NCBI GenBank assembly: GCA_032595685.2
Contig: CP159373.1
Span: 3,499,907 to 3,563,906 of the forward strand
DNA: 64,000 nucleotides
Reading direction: 5' to 3'
From: Candidatus Electrothrix aestuarii
GTDB lineage: Bacteria; Desulfobacterota; Desulfobulbia; Desulfobulbales; Desulfobulbaceae
Notes under the pieces: generated by a model
What the model saw: only the letters and a program-made list of their open reading frames with translations
Database searches by the model: none
Told to the model about the DNA's origin: nothing
Shown here: piece after piece, positions 43,798-51,660 of the stretch
How positions within the stretch are numbered: the stretch's first letter is position 1
How the letters are laid out: the number at the start of each line of letters is the position of its first letter
Translations under genes and position numbers: made by a program

Positions 43798-43958
43798 AAC
43801 AGGGTGTTGTCGCATTGGAGAAGCGGAGGTGCTCCTTGGATCCCTAAGCTTTTCCATTGCAATCGCCTTGAATCTATGGCACCTTTATTTTTAATATAAA
43901 GCTCTCAATTTTTCTCTCACCTAATCACTGTATGATGTCTTTCCCTCCTATTCCTCCA

Positions 43959-44092
43959 TATACCTGAGGCCGTAAAACGGTACCCGGCCCAGTTGGGGCT
44001 GGCAGGATATAACAGCGGTGACCTCTCCCCTCTGATTTTTTCGGAAATTTATTCCCCGTTCTGAAGATCAGACGAGCAGAAGGCCGTCTGAT
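43959..44092 (+). ncRNA. Candidate structured leader RNA, copy A (upstream of HesB/double-cubane operon)
   Basis: Aligned over its whole length with copy B at 50948. TATAC-TGA is followed by hairpin GCCGT/ACGG, then hairpin CCGGCCC/GGGCTGG, then GATATAACAGCGG and CCTC, and CTGATTT 73 nt after the start. The 3' part has ATCAGACG...CGTCTGAT (44067-44092), whose 5' arm could instead pair with the CTGAT at 44032. Such exclusive pairing is typical of riboswitch expression platforms. The gene start is about 210 nt further on. I recognise no known class. Confidence 0.55.
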
Positions 44093-44300: not shown

Positions 44301-44663
44301 ATGATTGAAGTAACAGAATCAGCAATTGCAAACATCAAGGAATACCTGGGACAGCAGAACATTGAGTCCTCTGTACGTATTTTTCTGATGTCCGGTGGAT
44401 GTTCAGGACCCAGCTTGGGACTGGCCCTTGATGAGGCCAAGGAAAACGACCTGAGCTTTGAGCAGGAAGGCGTGAGCTTTCTGGTAGAAAAGGCTCTCAC
44501 AGAAACCTGTGGCGCCATCAAGGTAGATTATCTTGAGGCCAGCAGCAGCAGCGACTGTGGTTGTTCCTCCGGTGGTGGTTTCAGTATCACCAGCGAAAAA
44601 CCGTTGGCAGGAGGAGGCGATGGCGGTTCCTGCGGTTGTTCCTGCAACGGTTCCTGCGGTTGA
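44301..44663 (+). CDS. HesB/IscA-like Fe-S carrier with Cys-rich tail
   Basis: 120 aa with GGAGAAAAT before the ATG. The N-terminal two-thirds have the HesB/IscA pattern: MIEVTESAIANIKEYL, RIFLMSGGCSGPSLGLALDEA with the first conserved Cys and the TCGAIKVDYLEA strand. The usual paired Cys site appears as DCGCSSGGGFSI. It then carries an unusual Gly/Cys-rich end (GSCGCSCNGSCG) that could bind a cluster or metal. It lies 14 bp before the double-cubane gene and downstream of structured RNA copy A, so it may supply clusters to that protein. Confidence 0.8.
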   Translation: MIEVTESAIANIKEYLGQQNIESSVRIFLMSGGCSGPSLGLALDEAKENDLSFEQEGVSFLVEKALTETCGAIKVDYLEASSSSDCGCSSGGGFSITSEKPLAGGGDGGSCGCSCNGSCG

Positions 44664-44677
44664 TCCGGGAGGCGAAA

Positions 44678-45967
44678 ATGAGTGATTTTGAAGTCAAGGC
44701 CTACCCGGAGCTGTGGCAATCTCTGGACGTGGATGTGGAGCGTTTTGACAAGGCCCGCAAGATGCTGGGTGATGTCTATGCGCAAGCCTTCCTCAGCCAG
44801 GAGAATCGTCCCAAGGCTATGGCCTATTTTGATGAGATGATCGCTGAGTTACACGGCGGGCGGATCAAGGAATTGGTGGAGGCTAAAGCCGAGGGAAAAC
44901 CGGTAGTCGGTACCTTCTGTGTCTACATCCCGGAAGAGATTGTTCTTGCTGCGGGTGGTATATGCATTGGGCTCTGCGGTGGTTCGCAGGGCTCTGTGCC
45001 GGATGCAGAAAAGACCCTGCCCCGTAATATCTGTCCAATGGTTAAATCTGCCTATGGTTTTAAGGCTGGCCGAATCTGCCCCTATTTTCAGGTAGCAGAT
45101 TTCCTCTATGGCGAGACAACCTGTGATGCCAAGAAAAAGACCTGGGAATTGCTGGATCGTCTGATCCCCACCCATGTGATGGAGATTCCCCAGACCAAGA
45201 AGCCGCAGAGCATTGCGCTGTGGCATGAAGAGGTCAAGGCCTTTAAGGTTAAGATGGAAGAGACCACGGGCAAGGAAATAACCGAGGCTGATCTGGCGGC
45301 GGCGATTAAATTGATGAATAATAAGCGCAAGGCATTGCAACGGTTGAATAACCTGCGTCATTATAATCCTTCCCCGATTTCCGGTAAAGACGGCCTGCTT
45401 ATTGAGCAGATCGCCTTTTATGATGATCCGGTTCGCTTTACCGAGAAGCTCAACGCCCTCTGCGATGAGCTGGACGAGCGGGTCGCGCAGCAGGTGACGG
45501 TCCAGGGACAGAAGAGCGCCCGGGTGATGGTCGCTGGTTCGCCAATGGCCCTGCCCAACTGGAAGGTACATAACCTGGTGGAAGGGGCTGGGGCGGTAAT
45601 CGTTAACGAGGAATCCTGCATAGGTACCCGTTATTTCAAGGACCTGATTGATGAGTCCGTCACTGGTATGGACAATATGCTGGCTGCGCTCACTGATCGT
45701 TACAAGGAAATTGATTGCTCCTGCTTTACCCCCAATAACGAGCGGATTGACCAGGTGGTCAAGGAGTTCCGTGAGTCCGGGGCCCAGGGAATCATCAACT
45801 ACTCTCTCCAGTTCTGCCATACCTATAATATCGAGGAAGTACGGATCCGCGAGGCCTGTGATAAGGAAGGAATTCCCTATCTCTCGCTGGAATCCGATTA
45901 TTCCCCGGAGGATATGGGGCAGATGCAGACCCGGATTGAGGCCTTTTTGGAACAGCTGAGTGACTAA
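44678..45967 (+). CDS. Double-cubane-cluster protein (2-hydroxyacyl-CoA dehydratase family, YjiM-like)
   Basis: 429 aa from ATG 44678 (GGGAGG upstream; the longer open frame overlaps the HesB gene out of frame and is not real). The family binds Fe-S clusters; the single-polypeptide members, called DCCP, carry a [8Fe-9S] double cubane, are activated by a dedicated ATPase, and can reduce small molecules such as acetylene. Conserved Cys lie in FCVYIPEEIVLAAGGICIGL, NICPMVKSAYGFK, GRICPYFQ, ESCIGTRYF and QFCHTYNIEEVRIREAC. Physiological substrates are not established. The activator is at 46051 after a hairpin repeat. Assignment as DCCP rather than a true dehydratase subunit rests on gene pairing and architecture. 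Confidence 0.85.
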   Translation: MSDFEVKAYPELWQSLDVDVERFDKARKMLGDVYAQAFLSQENRPKAMAYFDEMIAELHGGRIKELVEAKAEGKPVVGTFCVYIPEEIVLAAGGICIGLCGGSQGSVPDAEKTLPRNICPMVKSAYGFKAGRICPYFQVADFLYGETTCDAKKKTWELLDRLIPTHVMEIPQTKKPQSIALWHEEVKAFKVKMEETTGKEITEADLAAAIKLMNNKRKALQRLNNLRHYNPSPISGKDGLLIEQIAFYDDPVRFTEKLNALCDELDERVAQQVTVQGQKSARVMVAGSPMALPNWKVHNLVEGAGAVIVNEESCIGTRYFKDLIDESVTGMDNMLAALTDRYKEIDCSCFTPNNERIDQVVKEFRESGAQGIINYSLQFCHTYNIEEVRIREACDKEGIPYLSLESDYSPEDMGQMQTRIEAFLEQLSD

Positions 45968-46050: not shown

Positions 46051-46794
46051 ATGTATATCGGTGTTGATTTGGGTTCCCGGACCGTGAAAATGGCGGTTTG
46101 GGATGGGGAATGCCTGGTGGCGCATCGAATTGTTGAGTCCGGCTTTGAGCCCCATCGACAAGCGGAAAAGATGATTGCTGATTTCCGGGCAGACAAGGTA
46201 GTTGCCACTGGTTATGGGCGCCATCTTGCGGCAGAGCATTTTGCCGACCAGGTCATCACCGAAATCAAGGCCCATGCCTTGGGTATTCGTCATCACCTGC
46301 CCGACTGCACCACCATCGTTGATGTGGGCGGGCAGGATTCCAAGGTCATCACCCTGAATGCTCAGGGCAAGGTGGCTCATTTTCAGATGAATGATAAATG
46401 CGCTGCCGGAACCGGGCGCTTTTTAGAGATTATGGCCGCCTCTCTGGCCTATCCGCTGGCAGAGTTCGGCCAAGCGGCCCTTGCTGCGGAGCAGGAGGTG
46501 CAGATCAACTCCATGTGTACGGTCTTTGCCGAATCTGAGGTGATCTCCATGAAAAACCGAGGGGTTCCCCGTGAGCAGATCGCTCGGGCCGTGCATAGTT
46601 CTGTGGTTACTCGTCTGATCGCCATGCTTTCACGCACTGGTTACGGTGAGACTGTGGCCTTTTCCGGTGGGGTGGCTAATAATCCCTGTATGGTGCAAAT
46701 GCTCCAGGAGCGGCTCGGTGACACCCAGGTGCTGGTGCCGGAGTTCCCGGATATTACAGGTGCCTTTGGGGCGGCCTTGGCGGCAACTGATTGA
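46051..46794 (+). CDS. ATPase activator of the double-cubane protein (BadF/BadG/BcrA/HgdC family)
   Basis: 247 aa, ASKHA-fold ATPase that binds a [4Fe-4S] cluster between two subunits and injects low-potential electrons into its partner using ATP. Phosphate 1 motif GVDLGSRTVKMAVWD at the N-terminus, IVDVGGQDSKVI in the middle, the cluster-ligand Cys in NDKCAAGTGRFLE and SMCTVFAESEVIS, and the adenosine motif AFSGGVANNPCMV near the end. The length matches single-domain YjiL/HgdC activators. Its ATG lies 84 bp after the stop of its partner, inside the same operon. Confidence 0.9.
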   Translation: MYIGVDLGSRTVKMAVWDGECLVAHRIVESGFEPHRQAEKMIADFRADKVVATGYGRHLAAEHFADQVITEIKAHALGIRHHLPDCTTIVDVGGQDSKVITLNAQGKVAHFQMNDKCAAGTGRFLEIMAASLAYPLAEFGQAALAAEQEVQINSMCTVFAESEVISMKNRGVPREQIARAVHSSVVTRLIAMLSRTGYGETVAFSGGVANNPCMVQMLQERLGDTQVLVPEFPDITGAFGAALAATD

Positions 46795-47371: not shown

Positions 47372-49240
47372 ATGACATCAAGTTGCTGGAAAAAAGCGTT
47401 ACAGAAAAAGGAGCGGGAACTCTTAATTAGAAATCGGATTGCAGAAATATTTCTCACTATTTCCGGCGACAAAATATACTTTGAATTGTTACAGGTTATT
47501 TTGGAAGCTATGAAAAGTCCTTTTGGAACTATTGCTTATATTAATGAGCACGGAGAAAGGGTTGTGCCTGTCTTGACTAAAGACATTTGGAAGAATTGTG
47601 AGGTGCATAATGTGGAAATGGTGTTTCCCAGGGAGAAATGGAGTGGCATTTGGGGCAAATGTCTGTTGACCCAAAAGACCGTCTCTTCTAATGGACCGTT
47701 CAAGGTACCAGAGGGACATGTCTCAATAACCAGAGCCTTGGCTGTTCCAATAATTCATCAGGAAGAGGTTATTGGAAATTTTATGGTCGCCAATAAGGAG
47801 ACAGTGTATGGAGATGAAGATAAAAATATATTGGAGGCCATCGCTGACCACACAGCCCCTATTCTGCATGCCAGATTGCTGAATGAACGACATGAAAAAA
47901 GAAATAAAAGAGCAGAAGATCTGCTGAGAAAGTCCCATGGTGAGTTAGAAGCGCGAGTGAAAGAACGTACCGCAAAGCTTCAGGAAATGAATGATGAATT
48001 GCAAAACGAGGTCTCCGAGCGAATAAAAACGACTAGGCAGTTGCTCGCAAGTGAAGAGGACCTTAAGGACTCTCAACGAATTGCTCGACTTGGCACATGG
48101 CGGCTGGATTTTGCCAGTGAGAAAGTTGTCTGGTCAGAGGAACTCTACAAAATGTATGGTTTTGATCCGGCACAGCCTCTACCGCCATATACTGAACATA
48201 GGACGCTCTTTACTCCAGAAAGCTGGGAAAAGCTATCAGCATCTTTAACTCGTGCGAAAGAAACAGGTGCTCCCTATGAACTGGAGCTGAAGACCGTCAA
48301 GGAAGATGGATGTCGTGGCTGGATGTGGGTGCATGGCAGGGCAGTGAAGGACGAAAAAGGCTTGATCATTGGCCTGCGTGGCGTGGCTCAAGATATCACC
48401 AAACGTAAACAGGCTGAGCAGCAATATCATGAGTCTCTGACAATGTATCAAGATCTTGTTGAGACATCACAGGACTTGATTTGGCAATGTGATGAGAATG
48501 GAAGATACATTTACCTCAATCCCGCTTGGGAGGAGGTCTTTGGATATAAAATTGAAGAGATGCTTGGTAGAAAATTTACCGACTTTCAGACACCGGAGCA
48601 AGCGGAAATTGATCAGAAAGAGTTTCTGCGACTCATGAAGGGCAATGCTATAAAAGGTTATGAAACTATCCATATCGGTAAAAATAATAAACCAATTCAT
48701 TTGGTATTCAATGCAAAATTTTTGCTAGACACAGGTGGCAATATTGCCGGAACTCGTGGTACGGCCTATGACATTACACATCGATATGAAGCGGCTCAAC
48801 AGCTTAAAAAAAGTGAAGAAAATTATCATAATCTCTTCGAAAAGATGCTGGACGGGTTCGCTCTCCATGAGATTATTTGCAATTATTCCGGTACGCCGGT
48901 TGATTACCGTTTTTTGACCGTTAATCCTTCCTTTGAAAAAATAACCGGACTCAAGGCTAATGACTTGATTGGGCGGACTGTTCTCCAGGTTTTACCAGGT
49001 ACAGAGAAACATTGGATTAATATCTATGGTAAGGTTGCTCTGGTCGGGGATCCTGTCTTTTTTGAAAATTATTCACAGGAGCTTGATAGGCATTTTGAAG
49101 TGACAGCATATCAACCTGCCCCACATCAGTTTGCCTGTATCTTTAGGGATATTACAGCTGCCCGAAGAGCGAAGAAAGAACGAAAATTAAATGAACAAAG
49201 GCTTCAGTCCTTGTTGTCACTTCATGAAAAAAAATGTTAA
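47372..49240 (+). CDS. GAF-PAS sensor, N-terminal part of a frameshifted hybrid histidine kinase
   Basis: 622 aa with a good start site (AGAAGGAA). Residues about 20-165 are a GAF domain (LQVILEAMKSPFGTIAYIN, AVPIIHQEEVIGNFMVANKE). A coiled coil at about 170-215 precedes three PAS units (about 228-350, 355-470, 480-600), the first two ending in PAC-like GLRGVAQDITKRKQAEQQY and IAGTRGTAYDITHRYEAAQQ. The frame ends just after NEQRLQSLLSLHEKK in an A8 run; its continuation lies in the -1 frame from 49234. Together they would make a soluble receiver of about 1155 aa. No membrane helix was seen, so the signal may be cytoplasmic. Confidence 0.8.
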   Translation: MTSSCWKKALQKKERELLIRNRIAEIFLTISGDKIYFELLQVILEAMKSPFGTIAYINEHGERVVPVLTKDIWKNCEVHNVEMVFPREKWSGIWGKCLLTQKTVSSNGPFKVPEGHVSITRALAVPIIHQEEVIGNFMVANKETVYGDEDKNILEAIADHTAPILHARLLNERHEKRNKRAEDLLRKSHGELEARVKERTAKLQEMNDELQNEVSERIKTTRQLLASEEDLKDSQRIARLGTWRLDFASEKVVWSEELYKMYGFDPAQPLPPYTEHRTLFTPESWEKLSASLTRAKETGAPYELELKTVKEDGCRGWMWVHGRAVKDEKGLIIGLRGVAQDITKRKQAEQQYHESLTMYQDLVETSQDLIWQCDENGRYIYLNPAWEEVFGYKIEEMLGRKFTDFQTPEQAEIDQKEFLRLMKGNAIKGYETIHIGKNNKPIHLVFNAKFLLDTGGNIAGTRGTAYDITHRYEAAQQLKKSEENYHNLFEKMLDGFALHEIICNYSGTPVDYRFLTVNPSFEKITGLKANDLIGRTVLQVLPGTEKHWINIYGKVALVGDPVFFENYSQELDRHFEVTAYQPAPHQFACIFRDITAARRAKKERKLNEQRLQSLLSLHEKKC

Positions 49241-50847
49241 ATGAACAAGATCTTCTTCGTTATGCTCTTGAAGAGGCCATTAGAATGACAGAAAGTGAAT
49301 GTGGCTATCTTCACTTTGTCGATGATGATGAAATCAATATATCTTTAAACTTGTGGTCCCAAGAAACGCTTAAAATCTGTGCCGCTCAAAAAATATCTCA
49401 CTATCCACTCGAAAATGCAGGGGTATGGGCTGATTGTCTACGCCTGAGAAAATCTGTTGTTCACAATGACTATCCCAATCATTCTGAAAAGAAAGGTTAT
49501 CCCGAGGGGCATTTCCCAATTAAGAGACATATGAGTGTGCCGATCTTTGTTGATGATAAAATTGTTGCGATAGTTGGAGTTGGCAATAAGTCTGAAATAT
49601 ATGAAGAGGCTGACACTCGGCAAGTTTTACTCTTTTTTGCCAGCACATGGGATATCATTAAACAAAAACGATTAGAGGCTGAAAAGAAAAAGGTTGAAGC
49701 TCGCCTTGTCCAAGCGCATAAAATGGAGGCTATTGGTACTCTGGCAGGGGGGATTGCTCATGATTTCAATAATATTCTTGGAGTTATTCTGGGCTATACT
49801 GAGCTGGCCAAGGAGGATGCTCCTCTTGGTTCGAGATTTGCCTCTGGTCTTGATCAAGTCCTCATTGCCGGAAATCGTGCTAAGGATCTTGTAAAGCAGA
49901 TATTGGCTTTCAGTAGACAGACGGAGATGGAGCGTTTTCCATTGCAATTGCAGCCAATCATCAAAGAAGCCGTGAAAATGTTACGAGCGTCAATTCCAAC
50001 AACCATTGATATACAGGAAAATATTGATTTAAGCTGTGGGCTGGTTTTGGCCGATCCAACTCAGATACACCAGATTCTTATGAATCTTTGTGCTAATGCC
50101 AATCATGCTATGGAGAAGTCTGGCGGTATTTTGAAAATTGAACTGCGAAGGACTGATGTTGGAAATGATGTCCTGGGGGCCAACGTTCCGCTTAAACCAG
50201 GCCAGTATATTGAACTGGTTGTTTCTGACACTGGTGTTGGGATTGGTCTGGATATTATTCAGAAGGTATTTGATCCCTACTTCACAACAAAGGAACTCGG
50301 CAAAGGAACAGGAATGGGGCTGGCTATTGTTCATGGAATTATTACTGAATATGGTGGTGCCGTGACGGTTGAGAGTGAGCTGCAGCATGGAACAACATTT
50401 CACGTTTATTTTCCAAAGGCTGAGAAGGCTGAGCTGGAAACGGTCAAAAAAACTGAAGAGATTTATTCTGGGAAAGGAAATATCCTTTTTGTAGACGATG
50501 AAGAGCTGTTGATTTGTTTGGGAAAAGACATGCTTGAACGGCTTGGATATGATGTGACAGTTCGACAAAGCAGTATCGATGCATTGTCAACTTTTCAGAA
50601 TGATCCTTATGCATTTGATGTTGTTATTACTGACCAGACCATGCCGGGAATCACTGGTGCTGACCTTTCAAGAAGGATTTTGCAAATACGTCCCGATATT
50701 CCAATAATTTTATGCACAGGACATAGTAATTTGGTTGATGAAGTTTCGGCAAAGTCTATCGGTATCAAAGAATTTGTGATGAAACCGCTGGCAAAGGGGG
50801 TGATAGGAAACCTGTTACAGAAATTACTTGGCCCTGATAAAATATGA
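49234..50847 (+). CDS. GAF-HisKA-HATPase-REC hybrid histidine kinase, C-terminal part
   Basis: 537 aa. Residues about 5-140 form a second GAF domain of the type headed ALEEAIRMTESECGYLHFV. The kinase core follows: H-box GGIAHDFNNILGV with His176, N-box LMNLCANANHAME, G1 VVSDTGVGIG and G2 GKGTGMGLAIVHG. The C-terminal receiver (about 415-537) has FVDDEELL and phospho-acceptor Asp near 467 in VITDQTMPGI. It shares the A8 junction with the upstream reading frame. It might start at its own ATG 49234, which overlaps the upstream stop, but no ribosome site is present. No DNA-binding output is fused, so a separate regulator is expected. Confidence 0.85.
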   Translation: MLNEQDLLRYALEEAIRMTESECGYLHFVDDDEINISLNLWSQETLKICAAQKISHYPLENAGVWADCLRLRKSVVHNDYPNHSEKKGYPEGHFPIKRHMSVPIFVDDKIVAIVGVGNKSEIYEEADTRQVLLFFASTWDIIKQKRLEAEKKKVEARLVQAHKMEAIGTLAGGIAHDFNNILGVILGYTELAKEDAPLGSRFASGLDQVLIAGNRAKDLVKQILAFSRQTEMERFPLQLQPIIKEAVKMLRASIPTTIDIQENIDLSCGLVLADPTQIHQILMNLCANANHAMEKSGGILKIELRRTDVGNDVLGANVPLKPGQYIELVVSDTGVGIGLDIIQKVFDPYFTTKELGKGTGMGLAIVHGIITEYGGAVTVESELQHGTTFHVYFPKAEKAELETVKKTEEIYSGKGNILFVDDEELLICLGKDMLERLGYDVTVRQSSIDALSTFQNDPYAFDVVITDQTMPGITGADLSRRILQIRPDIPIILCTGHSNLVDEVSAKSIGIKEFVMKPLAKGVIGNLLQKLLGPDKI

Positions 50848-50947
50848 GGCATCCTTTCCCCCTTGCAATTTCCTCTGCGTTACATTATTGTTGTGTTGAA
50901 TTGAAATTATTACACAACAGAAATATTCCATGCAAACACCCCATCGC

Positions 50948-51091
50948 TATACATGAAGCTGCCGTAACGGCACCCGACCCGGTCCGGGTCGGCGAGTAAG
51001 ATCAGCGGCTTGCCTCCTCTCCTGATTTCTTTCGACCTCTTTGGTCGACGTATCCTTCTACGATAAATCAGACGGACAAGGGCCGTCTGAG
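50948..51091 (+). ncRNA. Candidate structured leader RNA, copy B (upstream of hdrA remnant)
   Basis: Matches copy A: TATAC, TGCCG-TAA-CGGCA hairpin, CCGACCCGG/CCGGGTCGG hairpin, GAGTAAGATCAGCGG, CCTC and CTGATTT 74 nt from the start. The CTGATTT (51022) can pair with AAATCAG (51065) around a TCGACC/GGTCGA hairpin; alternatively ATCAGACGG (51067) pairs with CCGTCTGA (51083). Paired bases change on both sides between the copies, for example CCGGCCC/GGGCTGG versus CCGACCC/GGGTCGG. It ends 125 nt before the hdrA-like ATG. Confidence 0.6.
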
Positions 51092-51215
51092 CAATTGATT
51101 CATTTCTCCGGCAAACGGCGGAACCATGTCTCTGCGTGTTCGTATTGCGTCTTCGCATTACATCTTCGTAGAGCATGGGAATGCGGCCGTGCCGATACGT
51201 ACGAAGGAGCTCTTC

Positions 51216-51660
51216 ATGACCGTAATTGCAAAAACAGCCGCCAAAATCAGCGGAGCCGTCATGGTTATCGGCGGTGGCGTGGCCGGTGTCCAGACTGCCC
51301 TTGATCTCACTGAACTGGGCTATAAGGTGTATCTGGTGGAGAAGTCCGGGGCCATTGGTGGGGTCATGGCCCGCCTGGACAAGACCTTTCCCACCAACGA
51401 CTGTTCTCTCTGTATCCTTGCGCCCAAGCTGGTTGAAGCGGGCCGCGATCCGAATATTGAAATTTTTACCCTGGCCAGCCAACATGTATTCCTGTTCCCA
51501 GGATGCGCAACGGGTGCTGACCGAGACCATTCAGGAGCATAAGCTCAATCGCTTGGTGGTGGCGGCCTGCACCCCGCGTACCCATGAGCCGCTTTTTCAG
51601 TCCACCCTGCGGGAGGCCGGGCTGAATCGCTCCCTTTTATTCATGCCCCTTTTCAGATGA
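51216..51660 (+). pseudogene. hdrA-like flavoprotein remnant with internal deletion
   Basis: From ATG 51216 (AAGGAG upstream) the product opens as Hdr[41 protein letters not shown] and [19 protein letters not shown], the FAD domain. Near 51490 the family match jumps and changes frame to [40 protein letters not shown] and AGLN, which in a complete HdrA lie some hundred or more residues further on. The intervening region, including the first ferredoxin-type Cys cluster, and everything after are missing. Complete HdrA uses flavin for electron bifurcation or disulfide reduction. The remnant is probably non-functional though its leader RNA survives. Confidence 0.75.

Follow-up and report, generated by a model that had tools for sequence, protein, structure and literature searches.

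Introduction

Leader-peptide attenuators, such as those of the trp and his operons and the translational attenuator of ermC, consist of a short open reading frame (ORF) with a control codon, and the position of the ribosome on this ORF selects the folding of the RNA. The subject of this work is a structured leader found twice in a stretch of 64,000 nucleotides (nt) from Candidatus Electrothrix aestuarii (contig CP159373.1, positions 3,499,907 to 3,563,906; hereafter the window), at 43959–44092 (copy A) and at 50948–51091 (copy B). The leader resembles the trp, his, and ermC attenuators in its short ORF with a control codon and in the mutually exclusive foldings downstream. It differs in that a UGA decoded as selenocysteine (Sec) would serve as the control codon, accompanied by a hairpin similar to a selenocysteine insertion sequence (SECIS), and in that no consistent run of U directly follows the last pairing strand (strand 4). 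The known attenuators regulate biosynthetic or resistance genes, whereas the leader precedes cysteine (Cys) isoforms of selenoproteins. We propose, with a probability of roughly 0.75 and on the basis of sequence comparison, that the leader is an attenuator that senses selenocysteine and governs a set of Sec-free backup enzymes. That it stands for a class of attenuators across the phylum Desulfobacterota, in which decoding of a leader-peptide UGA as selenocysteine would be the sensor and Sec-free isoenzymes would be made only when Sec-tRNA is lacking, is also likely, if held slightly less firmly.

The bacterial SECIS is modeled, in a 2026 review of the prokaryotic selenoproteome (PMC13188914), as a stem of 4–16 base pairs (bp) with a loop of 3–9 nt, located 16–37 nt from the UGA and with an energy of −7.5 kcal/mol or lower. 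In the same model, a G is found within the first two positions of the loop, and the base after it is mostly G or U. The leader is alike in the UGA, the spacing, the stem, and the early G of the loop, and its hairpin is predicted to direct insertion of Sec by SelB. The bacterial SECIS sits inside an enzyme gene, whereas the hairpin of the leader follows a short leader ORF of 8–11 codons, and decoding would serve regulation. A SECIS-like element before selAB of Escherichia coli, reportedly described by Thanbichler and Bock in 2002, is said to mediate SelB-responsive repression. The leader would share with this element a SelB-responsive hairpin in the 5' leader that gives repression; the E. coli element controls selAB itself and is not known to have a UGA-containing leader ORF or attenuator strands. 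The 2002 work is cited for autoregulation by SelB in PMC8124441.

In Methanococcus maripaludis, Cys isoforms including HdrA are made on selenium depletion through the HrsM switch; HrsM is a LysR-type repressor, and the 2024 paper states that selenium sensing in this system is unknown (PMC11097638). The leader is alike in its association with Cys isoforms including HdrA and differs in that an RNA would sense Sec decoding directly, in place of a LysR-type repressor. To our knowledge, the sensing of selenium by bacteria and the choice between Sec and Cys isoenzymes are an open question. No description of a selenocysteine attenuator was found in the accessible parts of the open-licence literature, and the main text of the 2026 review (PMC13188914) contains no mention of attenuation, leader peptides, upstream ORFs, or selAB.

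Results and Discussion

Identification of the Leader Family

Copies A and B were recognized as one structured leader in the initial annotation, and their alignment is confirmed over the full length. Common to both are TATAC, two hairpins (P1 and P2), a CAGCGG strand, CTGATTT, and a terminal ATCAGACG...CGTCTGA hairpin, and the changes between the P2 stems preserve pairing as had been noted (CCGGCCC/GGGCTGG in A and CCGACCC/GGGTCGG in B). The element itself held up, and its start moved: it begins further upstream than TATAC, which is part of the leader ORF. The terminal hairpin was likewise retained, with the addition that the CAGCGG strand is a second partner for its last strand, which gives two competing foldings. 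The genome of the window (5.1 Mb, one contig) contains, besides the two copies already noticed, an identical copy B2 (C1:3606956) and copy C (C1:3611346), four in all.

A covariance model (R1) was built from 11 sequences (alignment A2) and yielded 32 matches at E < 1e-5, spread over 17 of the 257 genomes of the order and including the four in the genome of the window. These leaders are designated type I. The search yielded what the initial annotation had anticipated, namely further copies in relatives with covarying stems, located before low-potential redox genes. A second form (type II) surfaced through weak matches before an HdrA, rhodanese, or formate dehydrogenase-like gene. Among 20 genomes examined for weak matches to models R1 and R2, a regulon gene adjoins the match in 11 and is lacking in 9. 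The weak-match loci with no regulon gene (L053, L056, L057, L059, L061, L063, L064, L112, L114, L118, L143, L146–L148, and L152–L155) were left out of the family; at L149, a fragment of HdrA is located ~1.3 kb from the weak match. Model R3, built from eight type II sequences (alignment A6), yielded 21 matches at E < 1e-29, which fall in 20 of the 257 genomes of the order, eight of the 21 being those used to build it. The N-terminal part of HdrA is found directly downstream of 19 of the type II leaders; the other two precede a C-terminal HdrA remnant with MvhD (G192) and a rhodanese (G201). Four type I leaders are also scored by R3 at their own positions (E of 6e-5 to 5e-3), and the two types are therefore considered related.

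Among 395 genomes drawn from across the phylum outside the order, only weak matches were obtained, one of which (G320) precedes HdrA. No match to Rfam was found at the gathering score in the window and three further loci, in agreement with the initial annotation, in which no known class with this sequence was recognized. The best sub-threshold matches in a permissive Rfam search around each window copy had E values of 2.8 or worse. A pattern scan returned 17 stretches, 9 of them from unrelated organisms, and was not used. A mobile repeat was rejected because copies in different families stand before the same set of genes.

Leader ORF and the In-Frame UGA Codon

An invariant UGA precedes P1 and is in frame with an upstream start codon. 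In type I, an open in-frame start is located 18–36 nt before the UGA in all 30 distinct leaders (28 ATG and 2 GTG), and the other two frames contain such a start in 0/30 and 2/30. In type II, the start is positioned exactly at −24 in 21/21 leaders (18 TTG, 2 GTG, and 1 ATG) and in none in the other frames. That TTG, GTG, and ATG replace one another at one set position is taken as a trace of selection on initiation. A ribosome-site tetramer is present upstream in 21/21 type II and 14/30 type I leaders, relative to a chance of ~7% per 13-nt window. A promoter reading of TATAC and an upstream TGYTGA box was dropped, since both consist of leader ORF codons; no other search for a promoter was made.

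At least 20 open codons follow the UGA in the leader frame of 29/30 type I and 21/21 type II leaders; for type I, the corresponding values in the other frames are 17/30 and 10/30. The next stop of type I is found at +69 in 15/32 leaders, where it is a UGA inside strand 2, and at +45 to +87 in the others apart from G034. In copy A it is a UAA at +45 that abuts strand 1. The next stop of type II is at +96 in 19/21. In the type II codons that precede the UGA, the third position is the most variable (1.12 bits versus 0.54 and 0.64).

Similarity of P2 to the Bacterial SECIS

The published SECIS model was applied with an uninterrupted stem, and duplicate leaders were counted. This strict test is passed by 43 of 53 leaders (22/32 of type I and 21/21 of type II), including both copies in the window. 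Of 788 ordinary ORFs in the same DNA that end in UGA, 38 pass it at their stop. When true Sec genes were subjected to this strict test, HdrA and HesB passed and MvhD failed. A hairpin with a GGUC loop (GGCCGGUCGGUC) follows the UGA in 9 of 16 Sec-HdrA genes; in six of these nine, the best fold includes it. The P2 loop of most leaders is GGUY, like the GGUC loop of the Sec-HdrA hairpin, and the conserved unpaired bases of the leader include the UGA and the GU of the loop.

Two Exclusive Foldings

Past P2, strand 4 may pair with strand 1 (1:4) or strand 3 (3:4), and strand 2 with strand 3 (2:3) or strand 1 (1:2). Folding of the long versions as single sequences is moderately better than that of shuffles (z of −1.76 and −2.65), and comparison across relatives was therefore needed. 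Covariation in type I was assessed with alignment A3 (31 distinct rows), using 500 shuffles and slid pairings as controls. The folding P1, P2, 1:4, 2:3 is paired in 85.1% of the cells (28–45% for slid controls). Both sides have changed in 15/31 pairs, a count as high in 10/500 shuffles and favored by the fitting of A3 to a model of the 1:4/2:3 structure. The covariation score was reached by 0/500 shuffles, and the number of pair types was not above shuffles (158/500). The alternative folding 1:2 and 3:4, which lies outside that model, is paired in 89.7% of the cells (21–35% for slid controls), with double changes in 4/12 pairs (22/500 shuffles) and a covariation score again reached by 0/500. 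In type II, the letters of which are quite different, P1, P2, and 1:4 pair in 93.8% of the cells and 3:4 in 87.5%, the 3:4 count being not clearly above shuffles (99/500; eight sequences). Strand 4 is unable to pair with strands 1 and 3 together, and therefore two exclusive foldings are maintained in the relatives.

Association with Cys Isogenes

The residue at the Sec position (Cys or stop) was checked in all 37 Cys-HdrA and 16 Sec-HdrA genes, and the regions upstream were searched for a signature consisting of a start, a UGA in the frame of this start, and a GGU hairpin with a stem of 6 bp or more. The signature is present upstream of 31/37 Cys-HdrA genes, 0/16 Sec-HdrA genes, and 0/8 other HdrA genes lacking the TGA (nine were taken, one of which was too short), with a background of 2.4% in 4000 random 400-nt windows. 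Many of the 37 Cys-HdrA leaders helped to build the models. Among those used in no model, the leaders of G039, G381, G033, G043, G320, G247, G198, and G284 were identified with the signature by script and that of G037 was recognized by eye. In G038 a Cys-HdrA is present, the upstream region of which was left out of this test.

The genes that miss the signature fall at G037 and G227, where the GGU hairpin has a stem of 5, at G127 and G183, where the P2 hairpin is present with the loops AGUUU and UGUUA, and at G016 and G034, both of which lack selB over the cut-off and also lack Sec-HdrA. No such hairpin was found upstream of the Cys-HdrA of G016. In G034, the leader ORF and UGA are kept, the P2 loop UAGUCU fails the SECIS model, and the second stop is at +192. 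Sec-HdrA also occurs in 30 of the 33 genomes with the close Cys-HdrA clade, the exceptions being G227 (84% complete), G016, and G034.

The genes behind the leader comprise HdrA, MvhD with an FdhA-like protein after it, HesB with a double-cubane reductase and an activase, and rhodanese; in a few genomes, there is a small protein of no known family or a DsbC-like neighbor. The bacterial selenoprotein families listed in PMC1794560 include HdrA, FrhD, FdhA, and HesB-like proteins. The genome of the window encodes a second HdrA with TGA (TNDCSL-U-ILAPKL) where the leader-controlled HdrA has Cys. A TGA-containing MvhD adjoins this Sec-HdrA (GG-U-QHGECHY versus GG-C-HPGECHY in the leader-controlled protein), and there is a HesB with TGA (QGG-U-AGPSLG versus SGGCSGPSLG). 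The FdhA-like protein has Cys at the position of Sec in E. coli FdhF. The leader, as judged from these pairs, marks the Cys isogenes of the selenoproteins HdrA, MvhD, and HesB, with the reductase and activase as possible passengers.

Proposed Mechanism

When selenium is plentiful, SelB with Sec-tRNA would act on P2 and the leader UGA would be decoded as selenocysteine. The read-through ribosome would then pass P1 and P2 toward strand 1 and the second stop, strand 4 would pair with strand 3, and the genes would be turned down. When selenium is scarce, the ribosome would halt at the UGA, strand 1 would capture strand 4, and the Cys backup enzymes would be made. The folding would be transmitted to expression either by occlusion of the ribosome binding site or via transcription. 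The direction of regulation is drawn from the biology, since it is under selenium shortage that a cell would need Cys isogenes, M. maripaludis being an example (PMC11097638).

The ribosome was simulated by masking the nucleotides that it covers in 31 type I and 20 type II leaders. With the ribosome at the UGA, the mean probabilities in type I are 0.34 for 1:4 and 0.47 for 3:4, and with the ribosome at the second stop the mean for 3:4 is 0.81, a shift of the kind expected of an attenuator. Access to the binding site after read-through is lower in 18/31 type I leaders and higher in 5/31. Upon folding at full length, the ribosome binding site is strongly paired in copy B and not in copy A. Intrinsic termination is improbable as the general output, since TTTT begins within ~5 nt of strand 4 in only 3/32 type I leaders (G028a, G028b, and G123). 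TTTTT is found within 20 nt of strand 4 in 5 other type I leaders, and termination is possible in the leaders with a U-run.

Several observations weigh against a selenocysteine-sensing attenuator. Ten of the 32 type I leaders fail the strict SECIS test; in seven of these the P2 stem is interrupted by eye (G001a, G003b, G005, G006b, G007d, G000_C, and G227a), and the other three are G034, G115, and G123. Four Cys-HdrA genes in selB-bearing genomes (G037, G127, G183, and G227) miss the strict signature, and the selB-less G016 and G034 belong to the same genus and are therefore counted as one event. A selB gene over the cut-off is found in 65/74 genomes with or without the leader, for which reason its co-occurrence was dropped as discriminating evidence. 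Three leader genomes (G004, G005, and G189), all drafts and all with Sec-HdrA, lack a full match to selB, and tRNA-Sec was not found in the 28 kb scanned next to selB. The other frames after the UGA are often open in type II as well (20/21 and 13/21), and openness past the UGA is therefore informative for type I only; in copy A, just 14 sense codons follow the UGA. Before the UGA, 11 type I leaders of equal length have no third-position excess (0.75, 1.28, and 1.11), and neither type has one after it, where there is thus no evidence for coding. RNA structure may constrain the letters in that region.

The output step is subject to similar reservations. The value of zero for 1:4 after read-through in type I is built in by the mask. 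In type II, access to the binding site rises under the same masking, from a mean of 0.10 to 0.27–0.32 (20 leaders), and this opposite sense means that occlusion is not a general output. The reversal probably comes from a pyrimidine tract, complementary to the binding site, directly after the second stop. Compared with 98 control sites, the leader shows only a slight preference for pairing with its own ribosome binding site (mean fraction of 0.38). Anti-Shine–Dalgarno pairing, suggestive relative to these control sites and to shuffles and of opposite sense in type II, was rejected as a general output.

Alternative Explanations

Repression could also occur with no read-through if SelB with Sec-tRNA, positioned on P2, blocked the leader or the ribosome binding site and the ORF were incidental. 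Such repression would agree with the SECIS-like character of P2, with its absence or alteration in the two selB-less genomes, and with distant leaders that retain the UGA and P2 while whole-element models match them poorly. The in-frame start kept in all 51 distinct leaders and the two exclusive foldings are left unexplained, however, and repression of this kind is considered improbable. The initial annotation had proposed a riboswitch-like or protein-responsive element tied to low-potential redox enzymes, with metals, flavins, and corrinoids as candidate ligands. The structured cis-acting leader and its tie to low-potential redox genes are retained. A riboswitch for a small molecule or metal, with P1 and P2 as the aptamer, would be compatible with the compact conserved structure, the cis location, and the alternative strands, but the loops of P1 and P2 are short, much of the conservation lies in the UGA, the GU loop, and the pairing strands, and the frame of the leader ORF is conserved. 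The ligand riboswitch is unsupported because of the leader ORF with its in-frame UGA, the SECIS-like hairpin, the attenuator-type strands, and the Cys versions downstream, and we regard it as very unlikely. The protein-responsive half of the earlier proposal came closer, in that SelB with Sec-tRNA would be the protein responder.

The UGA might instead be merely the stop of an ordinary leader ORF that senses the rate of termination or coupling, for example the level of release factor 2. A UGA can always act as a stop, the start codon shows good conservation, and no codon signature is found past the UGA; such a sensor would nevertheless not account for a SECIS-like hairpin at the right spacing in 43/53 leaders, nor for the Cys in place of Sec in the downstream HdrA, MvhD, and HesB, and it is given little credence. 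A functional micro-selenoprotein as the product of the leader ORF, with the RNA structure serving decoding only, is suggested by the U-x-C after the UGA common to some leaders. The peptides differ strongly between copies and types, however, and the strands past P2 would be unexplained, which makes this the most implausible of the explanations considered. The selenocysteine-sensing attenuator remains the preferred interpretation.

Features of the Window

The coordinates of the two copies and of the genes behind them are listed in Table 1.

Table 1. Coordinates of the leader copies and downstream genes in the window
Feature	Position	Strand	Remarks
Copy A leader ORF	43932–44012	+	ATG 43932 or 43935; in-frame UGA 43965–43967; next stop TAA 44010–44012
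Copy A hairpin P1	43969–43981	+	GCCGU AAA ACGGU
Copy A hairpin P2, SECIS-like	43984–44002	+	loop AGUUG starting 23 nt past UGA
Copy A strand 1 CAGCGGU	44013–44019	+	partner strand 4 or strand 2
Copy A strand 2 CUGAUUU	44032–44038	+	partner strand 3 or strand 1
Copy A strand 3 AUCAGACG	44067–44074	+	partner strand 2 or strand 4
Copy A strand 4 CCGUCUGAU	44084–44092	+	partner strand 1 or strand 3
HesB-like protein, NF038090 IscA_HesB_Se	44301–44663	+	Cys version SGGCSGPSLG
Double-cubane-cluster anaerobic reductase, NF040772	44678–45967	+	start by eye; 44669–45967 scanned
BadF/BadG-type activase	46051–46794	+	
Copy B leader ORF	50930–51025	+	ATG 50930; in-frame UGA 50954–50956; next stop UGA 51023–51025 within strand 2
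Copy B hairpin P1	50960–50972	+	
Copy B hairpin P2, SECIS-like	50974–50992	+	CCGACCCG GUC CGGGUCGG; loop starting 25 nt past UGA
Copy B strand 1 CAGCGGC	51003–51009	+	
Copy B strand 2 CUGAUUU	51022–51028	+	holds second stop of leader ORF
Copy B hairpin CGUA-UCCUUC-UACG	51049–51062	+	loop complementary to downstream Shine–Dalgarno 51203–51209; suggestive
Copy B strand 3 AUCAGACGG	51067–51075	+	
Copy B strand 4 CCGUCUGA	51083–51090	+	
Truncated HdrA, Cys version	51216–51542	+	intact copy elsewhere in genome

Copy B is followed by a broken HdrA gene: its ORF ends at 51542 and homology resumes in another frame (window 51216–51660). The intact HdrA is located behind B2. A broken or fragmentary HdrA is also found behind a leader in G046, G115, G028 (second copy), and G206. 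Between copies A and B (47372–50847) there are two PAS/GAF genes, the second of which encodes a GAF-histidine kinase-receiver hybrid.

The fourth copy, C (G000:C1:3611346; L033 11347–11475), precedes MvhD and a fusion protein of 1372 amino acids, in which an NAD(P)-binding oxidoreductase part is joined to one that is formate dehydrogenase-like. A gene on the opposite strand (L033 10374–10922, minus strand), with a start that is signal-peptide-like by eye, is located between HdrA and MvhD and may be the reason for the separate leaders of these two genes. A small protein with an LEIHQT motif (~165 amino acids) recurs in the leader-controlled set (L031 2895–3389, minus strand; L084; and L071); the L031 protein has no match to a Pfam or NCBIfam family. 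In G003, G005, G006, and G028, a selB match and a leader copy share a contig and are no more than ~11 kb apart.

Implications

The leader is proposed as a concrete RNA device for selenium sensing, with a defined codon and hairpin. A leader ORF with a UGA and a SECIS-like hairpin before a Cys isogene could serve as a search signature for selenium regulons. Under the proposed mechanism, cable bacteria and related organisms are expected to have backup versions of HdrA, MvhD, and HesB. If it is true, genetic recoding would be used here as a nutrient sensor.
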